Shown here: positions 3,721 to 16,895 of the stretch, in pieces
How the letters are laid out: every line of letters begins with the position of its first letter
Position numbering within the stretch: position 1 is the stretch's first letter
IMG/VR virus record: IMGVR_UViG_3300023115_000100
Span: 1-23,641 of that record
From: a virus
Reading direction: 5' to 3' (one strand)
Length of the DNA stretch: 23,641 nucleotides
The notes under the pieces: generated by a model
Databases searched by the model: none
What the model saw: the letters and a program-made list of their open reading frames with translations, nothing else
Told to the model about the DNA's origin: nothing
Made by a program: the position numbers and the translations under genes

Positions 3721-3898
3721 CTTCATCTCCTATGTATTCTAGTGAAATTACATCAGTACTTTTAATCTTTGGGTTCATCCATTCCTTGAACTCACAGTGT
3801 ACAGCATAAGCATTATCTATGTCATCTTCACAAAGAATATGAATCCTATCAATTACATAATCATGTATCTTGTATAGGTTTTCTTGTAAAGTTACCAT
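3704..3898 (-). CDS. Hypothetical protein, 64 aa
   Basis: A small acidic protein starting MVTLQENLYKIHDYVID. It has two cysteines and an acidic C-terminus (GDEDGGNV). The ATG at 3898 follows AAGGA at close spacing and lies 38 bases inside the end of the GIY-YIG gene. The 37-aa gene starts inside its 3' end. No recognised domain. Confidence 0.65.
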   Translation of the reverse strand: MVTLQENLYKIHDYVIDRIHILCEDDIDNAYAVHCEFKEWMNPKIKSTDVISLEYIGDEDGGNV

Positions 3899-4310
3899 AG
3901 TCCTTACGCATGTAGCGACCTAGAATATTACTATTATAATAGGCAGGACTTCCGTCGTCAAGTGCTTCTGATAATACATTGTTAAGAAACAATTGTTTTG
4001 TTTCTTCAAAGTTACAATTGCCTTTTGTATCGTGAATACTCAGTATTTCTCTACTGAAGATCTCTTTGCCATACTTTTTTATATCCTCCTTTAATTCTGG
4101 GCAAGAACCATAGTACTTTTTCCAATCTGATTCTTGTTTTACTTTTCTTTTCTTTCCTGGTGGCTTTCTAAAGGACCAAAAGTATTTTCTACCGATGTAC
4201 CGTTTACCTGTTTGTAAATTAGTAATCCTGTAGACAAAACCATACAAATCGTTAATGTCCTCAGATAGAAAAATTCTACCTTTAAAAACCCATGGGTTTT
4301 CATAACTCAT
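3861..4310 (-). CDS. GIY-YIG nuclease-family protein
   Basis: The 149-aa protein shows the GIY-YIG layout: YGFVYRITN at residues 23-31 (GIY half), then GKRYIGRK at 35-42 (YIG half). A conserved basic/aromatic segment follows (ESDWKKYYGS, 60-69), then FSREIL (85-90) and N100-x-E102 near the C-terminal helix, where the family has its metal-binding glutamate. Family members cleave DNA with one metal ion and include T4 homing endonucleases such as I-TevI. No separate DNA-binding domain is seen, so it may be a freestanding homing or host-DNA-directed nuclease; I cannot tell which. It is the first gene leftward from the divergent promoter region. Confidence 0.75.
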   Translation of the reverse strand: MSYENPWVFKGRIFLSEDINDLYGFVYRITNLQTGKRYIGRKYFWSFRKPPGKKRKVKQESDWKKYYGSCPELKEDIKKYGKEIFSREILSIHDTKGNCNFEETKQLFLNNVLSEALDDGSPAYYNSNILGRYMRKDYGNFTRKPIQDT

Positions 4311-4766: not shown

Positions 4767-5116
4767 TGTCACAACAACCAACATTTATCGTAAATCTGTT
4801 AATGTATACAGGTTGCGACTTTACTCAAACATTTGTATTAGAAGATACTCAGTCAAATTCACCAAAGAATCTGACTGGATACACTGCGTGTTGTAAAATG
4901 AGACGCTACGAAACTTCTAGTGAAGCGGGAACCTTTACAGTTGACTTTGGTAATGATAGAAGAGGAGGACGTTTAGAAATTATAATGACAAAAGCAAATA
5001 CTATTAACTTGAAAGCAGGAAAATATTTTTACGATGTCGTACTACAAGATCCTAACAACGAAAGGACAAGAGTCGTTGAAGGAACCATTTTAGTTAAGAG
5101 AGCAGTTACTCGTTAG
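4766..5116 (+). CDS. Probable virion (tail or baseplate) protein, paralogue 2
   Basis: The 116-aa protein is clearly related to its upstream neighbour: DFTQTFVL, NLTGYTACCKMR, FTVDF, GRLEIIMT, KAGKYFYDV and VEGTILV occur in the same order and spacing. It is a diverged tandem duplicate, translationally coupled to the first copy (TAATG). It has a local cysteine pair (ACCK) that the first copy lacks. It converges on the 852-aa minus-strand gene, and the two stop codons overlap (5113-5116) with no terminator between them. Confidence 0.7.
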   Translation: MSQQPTFIVNLLMYTGCDFTQTFVLEDTQSNSPKNLTGYTACCKMRRYETSSEAGTFTVDFGNDRRGGRLEIIMTKANTINLKAGKYFYDVVLQDPNNERTRVVEGTILVKRAVTR

Positions 5117-7671
5117 TTTTGCTTACTTACTGGTCTACCAGCATGTGATTTCTTCCACCAACCATAAGCATCCATGGTATTTGGATCGCTATTTGGATTT
5201 GGAATTATATCTTTAGTGGGATCATCTTCTACTTTTACCCCCTGCCCCTTTCCTTTCTCAGCATCAAGAATATTCTTTGTAGCAACTCCAAGACCTAATC
5301 CAAGTGTTCCAAGGGCAGCAATTTTACCTGCTGTTCCAAGAGGTTTTCTTGGTGGTTTTGGAATGTTTCTACCAGTTACTTGAGTTTTTGGTTTGCCAAA
5401 AACTCTCTTCATGAAACCAGTATTGAATAATCCACCTCTGGTCTGACTGCGAGTGATAGTAGTGGTTCCAGATCTGCCGAAAAGACCTTTTAACTTACCT
5501 GCTTGCCTTAATGCCCAAGGAGCAATTCTTGTTAGTGCTCCAATTCCCTCACAAACGGCATAGAGATCACTATCATAGCTAACACTCTCAGTAAGAGTCA
5601 GTGAAGAAATCACTTTCTCAGCAAGTTCTTCATCTTCAAGAGTCCAGAATTGAATAGTCTCATCAATAGTGTATCCACTCTTCAGCATAGCATCAGAGGT
5701 CTCAAGTACAAACTCTTCAAAAGTCTTCATTGAGAATGTATTTTTTCTTGGTTTTGGATTTGCTTTTTCCGCCTTTCTCTTAGCAACAATCTTATCATAC
5801 TGAGACTTAGTTACCAAATTCATTGCTGCTGGATTATCCACAACAACAGCAGTTCCTGCCTTATTCAATTTAAAAGAAGCAGTTTGCTGCTTATTTTTAA
5901 GATTATTCGCAGTGTTCTGAACCTGCTGTTGATTTACTCTAGGTCTTTGTGCTGGTGGTTTCATGGTCTTATTAAGGACCTTAGTAGCAAGTCCTCTAGC
6001 ACCTGCGTAACCAGCAATACCGCCAGCAATACCACCAAGAGCACCGCCTATCAGAGCCCCCTTAGGACCTAAGAAAGAACCAATCTTTGCTCCAAGTGCG
6101 AGACCTGCCTTAGCACCTGCCCATCCGCCAGCTGTTCCCGCACCGACCTGTGCGGCAGTTCTCTTAACTGACTGACGCTTAGAATATCCAGCGTCTCTAG
6201 CATCTTTGTAGGAAAGTCCAACATCTGCGATAGCAGCAGCAGGACCAGCAACACGACCAATACCACGGAGAGCACCTTTGACGCCCTTAACAGCAGGTGA
6301 AGATGGTTTATATGAGTAAGATCCTCTGCGACTGGTTGTAAATCCTGTTTGTGTACGCAAGTCACGAAAAGTCATTTTCTGACCTTGTGACTGAGGTTTG
6401 GTAGGTGATGGTTTTGCTGGTGGTTGAACGAAATTAGTTTGACTTGAAGTGACTCTAGCAGCACCTGTTGGTTTGGTAGGTGATGGTTTTGCTGGTGGTT
6501 GAACGAAATTAGTTTGACTTGAAGTGACTCTAGCAGCACCTGTTGGTTTTGAAGGTGCTTGAGTTGTTGGTGGAGTTCCTAAATTTAAAGTTTGTGAAGT
6601 TTTTGTCTTTGTCAGAGTGGCAGTTCCACCCTGAGAAGTACTAGGTTGTGTTGGAGTGCTACCGCTGCCACCACGACCACTACCAGTACCAGAACTTGGT
6701 TTGCTGCTAGATGGTGCTGTACCACCAGCAGACGGTGGTCTTTGAGCAGCAGGAGCATTGAACGCCCTTTTTAAAGCACGTCTTCTAGCATCCTCCAACG
6801 ACTTAAATGCCGCTTCACGTCTTGCAGTTTGTGGAACAATATCTTTATAACGACTAGTCATAGACTTATAAGTCTTTCTGACTTTGCTTCTTGCTGGTTT
6901 ATCACCAGCAGCTGCTCTACTCACAAGATCATCAACAGTCTTTGCTGATTGTCCTGGATTTTTTACACCACGTTTTGATGGATTATAATCAGCATCGCCA
7001 TATCCCCTAGTTACACTTCTAGTAGCATAAGTTTGAATACCTTTTGCTGTTGGTACTCCAGATTGTCCGATATAACCTCTTACACGACCTTTCTTAAAGG
7101 TTTTTAGTTGTGCTGCTGTAGGTGGTTTATTTACTGCTGCTCTTTTTCGCTCCAACTCTGCTCTGCGGGATTTTAAAGCTTTGGAAACTTCTGCTTGCTT
7201 AACTCCTTTTGGTTTCTCTACTGCTCTAGTCGCTTGGCGATATTTTTTTCCAGTTCCAGGTTCTGCACGTTTACCGACCATCGTTTCCTCTGGACCAGAA
7301 CTTTGTGCTGCTTGAAGTTCTGCAGATCCACCCTGATTTTTTAAAAGAGTGTCTTTAACTTGTTGTCTTTTTTCTTGCTCTTGTGCAGTTTTGATTGCTT
7401 TTTTAGAACTACCGAAATATACACCAGATTCTGGTTTACTTGATGTAGCAACAACTGATGGTTTTGTAGATTTGGCAGATTTCCAAAGACCTATAATCTC
7501 ATCAGAAGAAAGTGGTTTTCTTGCTGTATCAAGTCCTCTACGAATTCGTTGAGAAGAAAGTGATGATGTTTCTGGTCTAGCCTGACGCTGCAATTTCTTT
7601 TTGTCAGCATCAGATACAGGAAACGCTTCTTCTTTTATATTTTCAGTAATAAATTTCCTAAACGACTTCAT
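5113..7671 (-). CDS. Large basic modular protein with T4-type capsid-targeting N-terminus; probable packaged virion protein
   Basis: The 852-aa protein begins MKSFRKFITE, which fits the T4 internal-protein capsid-targeting sequence and its gp21 cleavage rule (I-x-E, cut after residue 10). Residues 11-310 are highly basic and probably disordered. Residues 310-430 are rich in P, S, T and G and contain an exact 25-residue tandem repeat. Residues 455-570 hold a glycine/alanine-rich hydrophobic stretch (for example GALIGGALGGIAGGIAGYAG at 538-557) that resembles a glycine zipper. Residue 648 starts a second targeting-like segment (MKTFEEFVLE), and 785-797 is another glycine-rich hydrophobic run. 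A late promoter lies 28 bases before the ATG. No enzymatic domain was seen. Packaging is inferred from the N-terminus, the promoter and the basic composition. Confidence 0.8.
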   Translation of the reverse strand: MKSFRKFITENIKEEAFPVSDADKKKLQRQARPETSSLSSQRIRRGLDTARKPLSSDEIIGLWKSAKSTKPSVVATSSKPESGVYFGSSKKAIKTAQEQEKRQQVKDTLLKNQGGSAELQAAQSSGPEETMVGKRAEPGTGKKYRQATRAVEKPKGVKQAEVSKALKSRRAELERKRAAVNKPPTAAQLKTFKKGRVRGYIGQSGVPTAKGIQTYATRSVTRGYGDADYNPSKRGVKNPGQSAKTVDDLVSRAAAGDKPARSKVRKTYKSMTSRYKDIVPQTARREAAFKSLEDARRRALKRAFNAPAAQRPPSAGGTAPSSSKPSSGTGSGRGGSGSTPTQPSTSQGGTATLTKTKTSQTLNLGTPPTTQAPSKPTGAARVTSSQTNFVQPPAKPSPTKPTGAARVTSSQTNFVQPPAKPSPTKPQSQGQKMTFRDLRTQTGFTTSRRGSYSYKPSSPAVKGVKGALRGIGRVAGPAAAIADVGLSYKDARDAGYSKRQSVKRTAAQVGAGTAGGWAGAKAGLALGAKIGSFLGPKGALIGGALGGIAGGIAGYAGARGLATKVLNKTMKPPAQRPRVNQQQVQNTANNLKNKQQTASFKLNKAGTAVVVDNPAAMNLVTKSQYDKIVAKRKAEKANPKPRKNTFSMKTFEEFVLETSDAMLKSGYTIDETIQFWTLEDEELAEKVISSLTLTESVSYDSDLYAVCEGIGALTRIAPWALRQAGKLKGLFGRSGTTTITRSQTRGGLFNTGFMKRVFGKPKTQVTGRNIPKPPRKPLGTAGKIAALGTLGLGLGVATKNILDAEKGKGQGVKVEDDPTKDIIPNPNSDPNTMDAYGWWKKSHAGRPVSKQN
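6395..6544 (-). repeat. Exact 75-bp tandem duplication within the 852-aa gene
   Basis: Two adjacent 75-base units (6395-6469 and 6470-6544) are identical, and the first five bases recur again at 6545-6549. Each unit encodes 25 residues of proline-rich linker containing TGAARVTSSQTNFVQPPAKP. Identity at every silent position shows that the duplication is recent or being homogenised. The length is a multiple of three, so the frame is kept. Confidence 0.95.
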
Positions 7672-15557: not shown

Positions 15558-16895
15558 TTACGATTTCCTTATCTTATATTTATTTATAAATGCGATTCCG
15601 CTAGACATAGCGCCTGGAACCATTGATTCAACATACTTTCGGTGAGCATCAGTTCCAATTAAACGTTGATTTGCGGGGACACCAGAACGAGTAGTTCCAT
15701 TGACAACTGCTTCGGTTACATCCTTAATCCATGCCTTAAACATAATCTTATCCTCAGTAACACAGATAAGATGATTAGCACCTCTACGAACAATACGACC
15801 AACCAATCCAGTATTGAGATTCTCCACCAATTCACCAATACGGAAAATTGCTTTACTTACATAATTTTCACGAAGAGTATCTTGGTCAAACTTAGGTGCC
15901 ATCTCCCAGATACCCCACTCCTCGTTGATACCCATCGACATTCTTGTGGTATCAAAAAGTTGCTTTGCTTCTCTGCGAGGGAAACCCTCAGGCATAGCAG
16001 ACATAAAAGTTTTGAAATCGTTCTCGGAAGCAGCAAGTCTCAATCGAGACGCAGACATCCCTTCAACTCCATCAGCATCAGGGTCTCTATCACCAGCAGA
16101 AACGACCTCAACATTGTCGAACTGATACAGAGAACCATTATAGTTATTAGCAAGTTTATCAAACTCCTTTACTCTATCGGCACCACCAACAATTCTTACA
16201 TTGGTGTATCCATCATTATGTGCTTTCTTTAAAACGTCAAAAATAGTTCTAGTATTCTGATCATTCTGAATTCTTGAACTATGCTGGGGAAACATCCCTC
16301 TCATAAATGCTACCTTTGTATCAGCATCCAAAGGATTCTTTTTAGGATCATTTGAACGTGAAGGTACAATCATATAATCACTTCCGTCTGCTTCAGCAGC
16401 AGAGGCAGCAGTATCCATTAACTGTTGGTGACCAGCATGTGGAGGATTAAATCTACCAAAAGCAATGGTCAAAGTTCCTTTTGTTTTGGGCACAGGAGGT
16501 GGACCTGCTTTTAAATCTGGACTCTGAAGTTGAGACTGAACAGCATCCGCTTGTACTGCCTGTTGTTCTATCTCCTTTTCAGCAGCAACAGCATCCATCT
16601 CATCTGCTTGTGCTCTCAGTTCATCAGACGATGGTTCGGATGCGGGTTCTTGTTGCTTAAGTGATGGATCTGTAAAGTTTGGATCTGAGATATTCTTTTC
16701 CAGTTCAGTTTGGTCAGGATCTCCCTTACCAACTTGCTGTCTCTTATTATAAAACTTTAATCTTCCCTTTTCTGTTTTGGCGACAAACTCTTTGGTGGTT
16801 CTATCATACCATCCACCATGCCCGTCTCCTTCAAGACCAAGACGTGCTGCCTGCTGCGCTGCAGATTCACTAAGAAATTGGAAAAAACTTTTCAT
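15558..16895 (-). CDS. HxGH nucleotidyltransferase with T4-type capsid-targeting N-terminus
   Basis: The 445-aa protein begins MKSFFQFLSE, matching the T4 capsid-targeting layout with a gp21-type site (L-S-E) after residue 10. Residues 55-135 are a P/Q/E-rich linker. The catalytic domain has GRFNPPHAGH (147-156, the HxGH signature), IVGGAD (235-240) and GMSASRLR (279-286, equivalent to the ISSTxxR motif). This places it in the nicotinamide-nucleotide adenylyltransferase/cytidylyltransferase superfamily; the substrate cannot be told. Residues 350-400 (GELVENLNTGLVGRIVRRG and on) look like a small SH3/KOW-like beta domain. The ATG overlaps the 71-aa gene stop (ATGA). Packaging in the head is inferred. 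Confidence 0.85.
   Translation of the reverse strand: MKSFFQFLSESAAQQAARLGLEGDGHGGWYDRTTKEFVAKTEKGRLKFYNKRQQVGKGDPDQTELEKNISDPNFTDPSLKQQEPASEPSSDELRAQADEMDAVAAEKEIEQQAVQADAVQSQLQSPDLKAGPPPVPKTKGTLTIAFGRFNPPHAGHQQLMDTAASAAEADGSDYMIVPSRSNDPKKNPLDADTKVAFMRGMFPQHSSRIQNDQNTRTIFDVLKKAHNDGYTNVRIVGGADRVKEFDKLANNYNGSLYQFDNVEVVSAGDRDPDADGVEGMSASRLRLAASENDFKTFMSAMPEGFPRREAKQLFDTTRMSMGINEEWGIWEMAPKFDQDTLRENYVSKAIFRIGELVENLNTGLVGRIVRRGANHLICVTEDKIMFKAWIKDVTEAVVNGTTRSGVPANQRLIGTDAHRKYVESMVPGAMSSGIAFINKYKIRKS
15581..15588 (-). promoter_or_regulatory. T4-type late promoter inside the 3' end of the nucleotidyltransferase gene
   Basis: The minus strand reads TATAAATA 38 bases before the ATG of the 508-aa gene, within the last codons of the upstream gene. 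It would let the 508-aa gene be expressed late, independently of read-through. Confidence 0.75.

Follow-up and report, generated by a model that had tools for sequence, protein, structure and literature searches.

The gene at positions 15558-16895 (- strand) of a T4-like cyanophage sequence raises the question of whether a nucleotide-handling enzyme is carried in the phage head and delivered to the host together with the DNA. The sequence, here called the window, corresponds to an entire IMG/VR record (23,641 bases), and its nearest annotated relatives are P-SSM2, S-SKS1, and S-SRM01. The window ORF scan showed the gene to be a real ORF of 445 aa with an ATG start, and no alternative start was found upstream of that ATG. 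Gene order, judged by eye, is T4-like, with gp43, uvsX, gp41, and mazG on one side of the enzyme gene and gp61, nrdA, and nrdB on the other. The product is T4-GC190, a core gene of T4-like cyanophages usually annotated as 'cytidyltransferase' or 'cytitidyltransferase', and relatives of the enzyme are present in 534 phage records. The initial annotation had read the protein as a head-packaged nucleotidyltransferase with a leader bearing an L-x-E site and with HAGH and GMSASRLR motifs; the ORF, the leader, and the two motifs were confirmed at residues 1-10, 153-156, and 279-286, respectively (Table 1).

The domain anatomy of the 445-aa protein was examined with an AlphaFold model built with 47 relatives. 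In this model, the leader is poorly ordered (pLDDT 48) and precedes residues 12-48, which form a helix and the small beta module. The Rossmann-type domain at residues 139-300 is confident, with pLDDT mostly above 90, and the linker before it is mostly disordered save for a single long helix. The strands of the C-terminal barrel span residues 356-395. The linker and C-terminal module proposed earlier are recovered as a disordered acidic/Q-rich segment and a five-stranded barrel, for which the SH3/KOW-like label would fit by strand count. The beta module itself (residues 21-48, pLDDT about 85) lay beyond that description.

Table 1. Features of the 445-aa protein and a second predicted cargo protein, in window positions
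Feature	Residues	Positions	Strand	Basis or remark
Leader MKSFFQFLSE	1-10	16866..16895	-	T4-type capsid targeting sequence, predicted gp21-type cleavage after E10
Small beta module SAAQQAARLGLEGDGHGGWYDRTTKEFVAKTEKGRLKF	11-48	16752..16865	-	AlphaFold pLDDT about 85
Acidic/Q-rich low-complexity linker	49-137	16485..16751	-	pLDDT about 46-61 at 50-90; long helix 90-122
Adenylyltransferase (HIGH/HxGH nucleotidyltransferase) domain	138-300	15996..16484	-	PF01467, TIGR00125, fold comparison
HxGH motif HAGH	153-156	16428..16439	-	G155, H156 invariant in 47 diverse relatives
Second nucleotide-binding motif SASRLR	281-286	16038..16055	-	Conservation in 47 relatives
C-terminal five-stranded small barrel	350-396	15708..15848	-	AlphaFold pLDDT 86-90
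Second predicted cargo, 852-aa Gly/Ala-zipper protein, starts MKSFRKFITE/N		5113..7671	-	Leader motif

The C-terminal barrel matches phrog_4808 and phrog_22379. Only residues 336-399 matched phrog_4808, and its name, 'ribonucleotide reductase alpha subunit', was rejected for this module as annotation spill-over. In the leaderless phages P-HM1 (L090:2980-4877) and S-PM2 (L091:5339-5614), the C-terminal barrel is encoded apart from the enzyme domain, by a gene of its own. Long relatives such as L244:1396-3798 have an extra domain of ~300 residues (SIIDIPRRTYAPKV...) between the leader and the HxGH enzyme, and an internal site directly ahead of the enzyme may be open to cleavage.

The enzyme domain scored 32.3 bits against Pfam CTP_transf_like (PF01467; cutoff 21) and 29.4 bits against TIGR00125 (cutoff 27.7). 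The 47 relatives reach down to 30% identity, and the catalytic motifs are invariant throughout; within the second motif S281 and R286 are invariant, with A282 and S283 kept at 90% or more. Comparison of the predicted model by Foldseek and VIA-align returned PPAT, NadD, and NadM as fold templates at Z 12.3-13.9 and 12-19% identity. The HxGH and SxSxxR motifs, together with the predicted Rossmann-type fold, place the protein in the HIGH/HxGH nucleotidyltransferase superfamily, as had been proposed. The degenerate active site that the initial annotation had named as evidence against its own reading was not seen, the motif residues being invariant and the predicted fold intact. PDB sequence searches with the enzyme (up to E 1) and with the 47-member profile (up to E 0.01) both came back empty; homology to solved enzymes is therefore by fold only. 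The best structural templates are adenylyltransferases, and the name 'cytidylyltransferase' was rejected; the comparison with NMNAT and cytidylyltransferases suggested earlier thus came out for adenylyl transfer and against the latter name. A catalytic adenylyltransferase is the likely identity of the enzyme.

The acceptor is a more tentative matter. The template Z-scores of 13.9 for PPAT, 12.7 for NadD, and 12.5 for NadM (VIA-align) spread over about 1.4 Z units. In NCBIfam, the NMNAT equivalog cutoffs were missed widely (NadR, 26.2 of 341 bits; NadD, 24.5 of 240 and 21.6 of 112 bits), and the curated PPAT (CoaD) cutoff was also missed (14 of 103 bits). The NMNAT and PPAT templates are tied, and therefore NMN is not singled out as substrate. 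The earlier description of an NMN adenylyltransferase-like enzyme holds for the adenylyltransferase fold and is hypothetical for NMN specificity, with NadD, NadM, and PPAT level and the scores below the NMNAT cutoffs; NMN or NaMN can be put forward as acceptor only tentatively. The window enzyme resembles NMNAT (NadM, NadR, NadD) and PPAT (CoaD) in its HxGH and S-x-[ST]-x-x-R motifs and Rossmann-type fold, but differs from them in its low identity, its sub-cutoff equivalog scores, and its extra N- and C-terminal modules. A literature search for papers tying NMNAT of the T4-GC190 family to NAD+ reconstitution by phages yielded nothing usable. Elsewhere in the window, the ORF at 3861-4310 (- strand) matches phrog_447, named 'NAD synthetase'; it is a SegE-type GIY-YIG nuclease (PF19835, E 4e-56) and was therefore rejected as support for an NAD pathway. 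The name of PHROG 447 looks wrong and may mislead claims about cyanophage NAD pathways.

The protein could instead be packaged by its leader and adenylate a non-NAD acceptor, either pantetheine-like or a nucleic-acid end, in partnership with a ligase-like DUF6267 protein, an alternative that we regard as possible, if somewhat short of probable. PPAT (CoaD) templates, at Z 13.9, rank level with or above the NMNATs at 12.3-12.7, which favors such an acceptor, whereas sequence profiles place NadR/NadD slightly above CoaD. DUF6267 (T4-GC71) is the usual gene just upstream of the enzyme in many relatives, and in S-PM2 the enzyme domain, which is leaderless, stands behind DUF6267 and is fused to it. 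The family has invariant ligase-type motifs (K-x-D-G, E-G, and KxxDR), its predicted model aligns with RNA/DNA ligases (Z 5.7-7.4), and several copies are leader-tagged. Against the partnership, no DUF6267 gene is listed as adjoining the enzyme gene in the window's own clade (L007-L086), and the best Foldseek E value for the model is 0.14, so that a ligase-like fold is weakly supported by the prediction. A PDB profile search with DUF6267 returned nothing meaningful. Copies of DUF6267 occur at L268:4695-5942, L328:9693-10931, L350:6287-7537, and other loci.

We then compared the leader with the capsid targeting sequence (CTS) of T4. With a slash marking the predicted cut, the window leader reads MKSFFQFLSE/S, with L8-S9-E10, and IPII and IPIII start MKTYQEFIAE/A in the T4 record. 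The first ten residues of IPIII suffice to send internal proteins into the T4 prohead core, and mutations have shown that residues 4 and 7 target and that residues 8 and 10 allow processing (PMC9026906). Among 160 orthologues from two distant clades in IMG/VR, M1, K2, F4, and F7 are kept in every one, position 8 is L/I in 155, position 10 is E in 154, and positions 3, 5, 6, and 9 are variable. As judged from these alignments, the conservation is not due to chance. Because residues 4, 7, 8, and 10, mapped in T4, are conserved in the orthologues, we count the leader as a T4-type CTS, and the comparison supports the view that it would behave as one. Orthologues detected in virions start MKKFSAFLNE/A (S-SM1), MKSFLQFLKE/A (S-SCSM1), and MKNFSSFLTE/A (S-CREM2), and the likely gp23 cleavage site shares the form of the leader site (GSFLTE/A in T4, GSFLAE/A in S-SCSM1). 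Pelagiphage relatives of the HTVC008M type keep MKTLKELL, with the Glu and the linker missing, and the S-CAM9 and P-HM1 enzymes are without a leader; packaging is therefore not universal for the T4-GC190 family.

The likeness to T4 IPI, IPII, and IPIII extends to the ten-residue N-terminal leader, K2, an aromatic residue at position 4, F7, I/L8, and E10. Also in common are a small P1' residue, unrelated mature parts, and, for orthologues of the window enzyme, detection in virions of T4-like phages. The P1' residue is Ser in the window leader and Ala in the T4 proteins, a difference that counts against the likeness. Unlike the T4 internal proteins, the window protein is in its mature part a multidomain enzyme, larger than they are by a factor of about 2-5; an extra small beta module follows its leader, and its cleavage and ejection are only predicted. 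T4 Alt ADP-ribosyltransferase is likewise a head-packaged enzyme from a superfamily connected with NAD chemistry, but it differs in fold and reaction; Alt consumes NAD, whereas the window enzyme would make NAD or adenylate another acceptor.

Evidence for presence in virions comes from published mass spectrometry of orthologues rather than from the window's own uncultured phage. Sullivan et al. 2010 found the T4-GC190 'citidylyltransferase' in S-SM1 virions (PMC3037559). The S-SCSM1 paper lists ORF91, annotated as NMNAT, among 45 virion proteins and cites a similar detection in S-CBWM1 (PMC9602691), and S-CREM2 ORF154 was detected in virions with 3 peptides (PMC10665884). S-SCSM1 ORF91 and S-SM1 T4-GC190 are orthologues of the window enzyme with the same leader and the same locus between gp41/mazG and gp61/nrdA, although they are only about 44% and 42% identical to it, respectively. 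S-PM2 encodes T4-GC190, yet the protein was not seen in S-PM2 virions (PMC3037559), an absence that the leaderless state of the S-PM2 enzyme fits. The leader goes unmentioned in the available text of the S-SCSM1 and S-SM1 papers (PMC9602691, PMC3037559), and no peptide starting at residue 11 is reported in the available parts of the published virion analyses of orthologues. The earlier prediction of packaging in the head gains from these virion detections and from the conservation and motif statistics that mark the leader as a T4-type CTS, and we consider it very probable that the leader packages the enzyme.

The leader was also evaluated as a predictor of cargo in single genomes, using the motif [start]-[KR]-x-[FYLWIM]-x-x-[FYLIM]-[LIVM]-x-E in six frames on ORFs of at least 60 aa. 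The strictness of the motif was set after the T4 and cyanophage leaders were known, and the S-CREM2 scan was later than the first motif version. In T4 60-110 kb, ipII and ipIII are the only such ORFs that it picks out. From the 175 kb of S-CREM2, it retrieves exactly gp6 (SAM lyase), gp13, gp14 (kinase), and gp154 (the orthologue of the window enzyme). All four were detected by mass spectrometry, the virion list comprising 52 of 219 proteins (hypergeometric p = 0.003 with a GTG-start version, which adds gp14 and was run only after gp14 had been seen); with ATG starts only, 3/3 motif ORFs were in virions (p = 0.013). The leader is thus associated with virion proteins. In S-SCSM1, the motif matches the virion protein ORF91 and also ORF30, which has the leader and is not flagged as a virion protein.

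A fifth virion enzyme of S-CREM2, gp12, has a shifted leader (LRFASFMAE/A) followed by a copy of the post-leader module of the window protein, and alignment of the module between the window protein and the otherwise unrelated gp12 scored 97 against a shuffle maximum of 46. A homologue of the module also follows the leader in S-CRM01 g128. The syntenic row in S-CRM01 consists of a kinase, a small protein, the module protein, and the adenylyltransferase, all with leaders or leader-like starts. S-CREM2 gp12 (L255:7704-10313), found in virions, is annotated as a CRISPR-Cas9 nuclease; no Pfam domain was found in it.

Within the window, the 852-aa ORF listed in Table 1 is the only other ORF matched by the motif. 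This Gly/Ala-rich protein has a second, internal leader-like sequence, MKTFEEFVLE/T, at residue 648 (start 5730), and looks as if two cargo proteins were fused that the prohead protease could separate. Both this ORF and the occurrence of the leader as a general tag on many unrelated proteins had been missed by the initial annotation.

To survey the tag more widely, a DNA pattern for MK.F..FI.E was scanned in IMG/VR with a permuted pattern as control, and the two were compared by match position within ORFs among the matches listed, not as density per genome. Among the matches listed, 113/128 leader matches begin an ORF of at least 60 aa, as compared with 2/120 for the control (88% vs 2%). The residue after the Glu is Ala/Ser in 64/116 vs 0/23 for the control, and a T4-like core gene is present in 87/119 leader loci vs 47/120 control loci, again among the matches listed. 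The leader starts at least about 69 dissimilar protein families among these matches, a figure obtained with a rough filter on sequence similarity. About ten kinds can be told apart by Pfam among the carriers, including SAM lyase, adenylate kinase, RimK-type ATP-grasp, HicA toxin, HD_4, GNAT, HNH, and DUF6267, with NTP_transf_2 as a weak match.

Leader-tagged examples are a SAM lyase (L305:1441-2151), an adenylate kinase (L278:590-1174), a RimK-type ATP-grasp protein (L295:3704-5116, - strand), a HicA toxin (L301:12007-12630), and a YHGT-motif protein adjoining a GNAT acetyltransferase (L284:3736-4529). At L328:1226-1783 (- strand), the leader precedes an HD_4 domain resembling ppGpp hydrolases (SpoT/Mesh1-like by motif), possibly an injected alarmone hydrolase.

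We think it probable that T4-like phages of marine and fresh waters use the T4-type leader as a general and transferable signal for packaging, one that reveals from sequence alone a large unrecognized injected arsenal. This would include the adenylyltransferase, the ligase-like DUF6267, SAM lyase, kinases, RimK, HicA, ppGpp-hydrolase-like HD proteins, GNAT, and nucleases. If so, leader-tagged proteins would already affect the host ahead of any phage gene expression.

These carriers bear on the idea that the protein has a structural or assembly role in the head core, as a scaffold helper whose nucleotidyltransferase domain was kept as a fold and not for catalysis. T4 IPIII also affects head assembly (PMC9026906), and the status of the enzyme as a cyanophage core gene can be counted on the same side; however, a pure scaffold would not need the catalytic motifs that the 47 relatives retain, and related leader carriers are obvious enzymes, so we consider this role unlikely. 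It is very improbable that an abundant late protein was merely carried over into the virion preparations and that its leader resembles the T4 tag by coincidence: carry-over is allowed for by the authors of PMC9602691 and PMC10665884, and the S-CREM2 detection is of three peptides only, but virion detection was independent in at least three phages, the leader lies at ORF starts far more often than the control among the matches listed, and the S-CREM2 leader ORFs are all in virions.

The window protein is, in our judgment, likely to be a T4-style internal head protein that is targeted by its leader, cleaved, ejected, and active as an adenylyltransferase in the host. It would be synthesized late in infection and captured as leader residues 1-10 bind the prohead scaffold core. 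After assembly, a gp21-type prohead protease would cut behind E10, so that the mature protein starts with SAAQQAAR; gp21 was not found within the 23.6-kb window, a genome fragment. The mature protein would be retained in the head with the DNA and ejected on infection. In the host, it would convert ATP and an acceptor to an adenylated product and PPi, the most likely single acceptor being NMN or NaMN, to give NAD or its precursor, with pantetheine-type or nucleic-acid-end acceptors as alternatives. Presence in purified virions, published for relatives, is the only one of these steps shown directly; cleavage in the window phage, ejection, the action from the first minute suggested earlier, catalytic activity, the substrate, and any benefit are predicted from T4 precedent and the sequence analysis.

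That an injected NMNAT-like enzyme may reach the host cell and affect its NAD pool was already proposed for ORF91 by the S-SCSM1 authors (PMC9602691). Because that proposal and the virion mass spectrometry of orthologues are published, the idea of a packaged enzyme with a possible effect on host NAD is largely known, subject to the carry-over caveat, and the general principle of leader-directed packaging is that of T4. The part that appears to be new is the recognition that the leader is a T4-type CTS with predictive power across unrelated proteins; apart from a T4 review holding both terms, no paper joining CTS with cyanophages was found in a search that had preprints and subscription journals outside its range. 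Virion proteomics cannot separate cargo from carry-over, which makes truly injected cyanophage proteins hard to tell, and the ten-residue tag, since its cleavage site is defined, makes the distinction directly testable through the peptide from residue 11. If the reading is true, genomes and metagenomes of the abundant aquatic T4-like phages could be read for injected host-takeover and anti-defense enzymes, and the 'cytidyltransferase' core gene could be assigned to a stage of infection.

The gene upstream of the enzyme varies by phage (17100-18089 in the window; L001:10640-11974; L087:591-1793; L093:16447-17280). By eye, these genes often have a D...(E/S)xK pattern resembling PD-(D/E)XK nucleases, and S-SCSM1 ORF90, an upstream gene with this pattern, is a virion protein.
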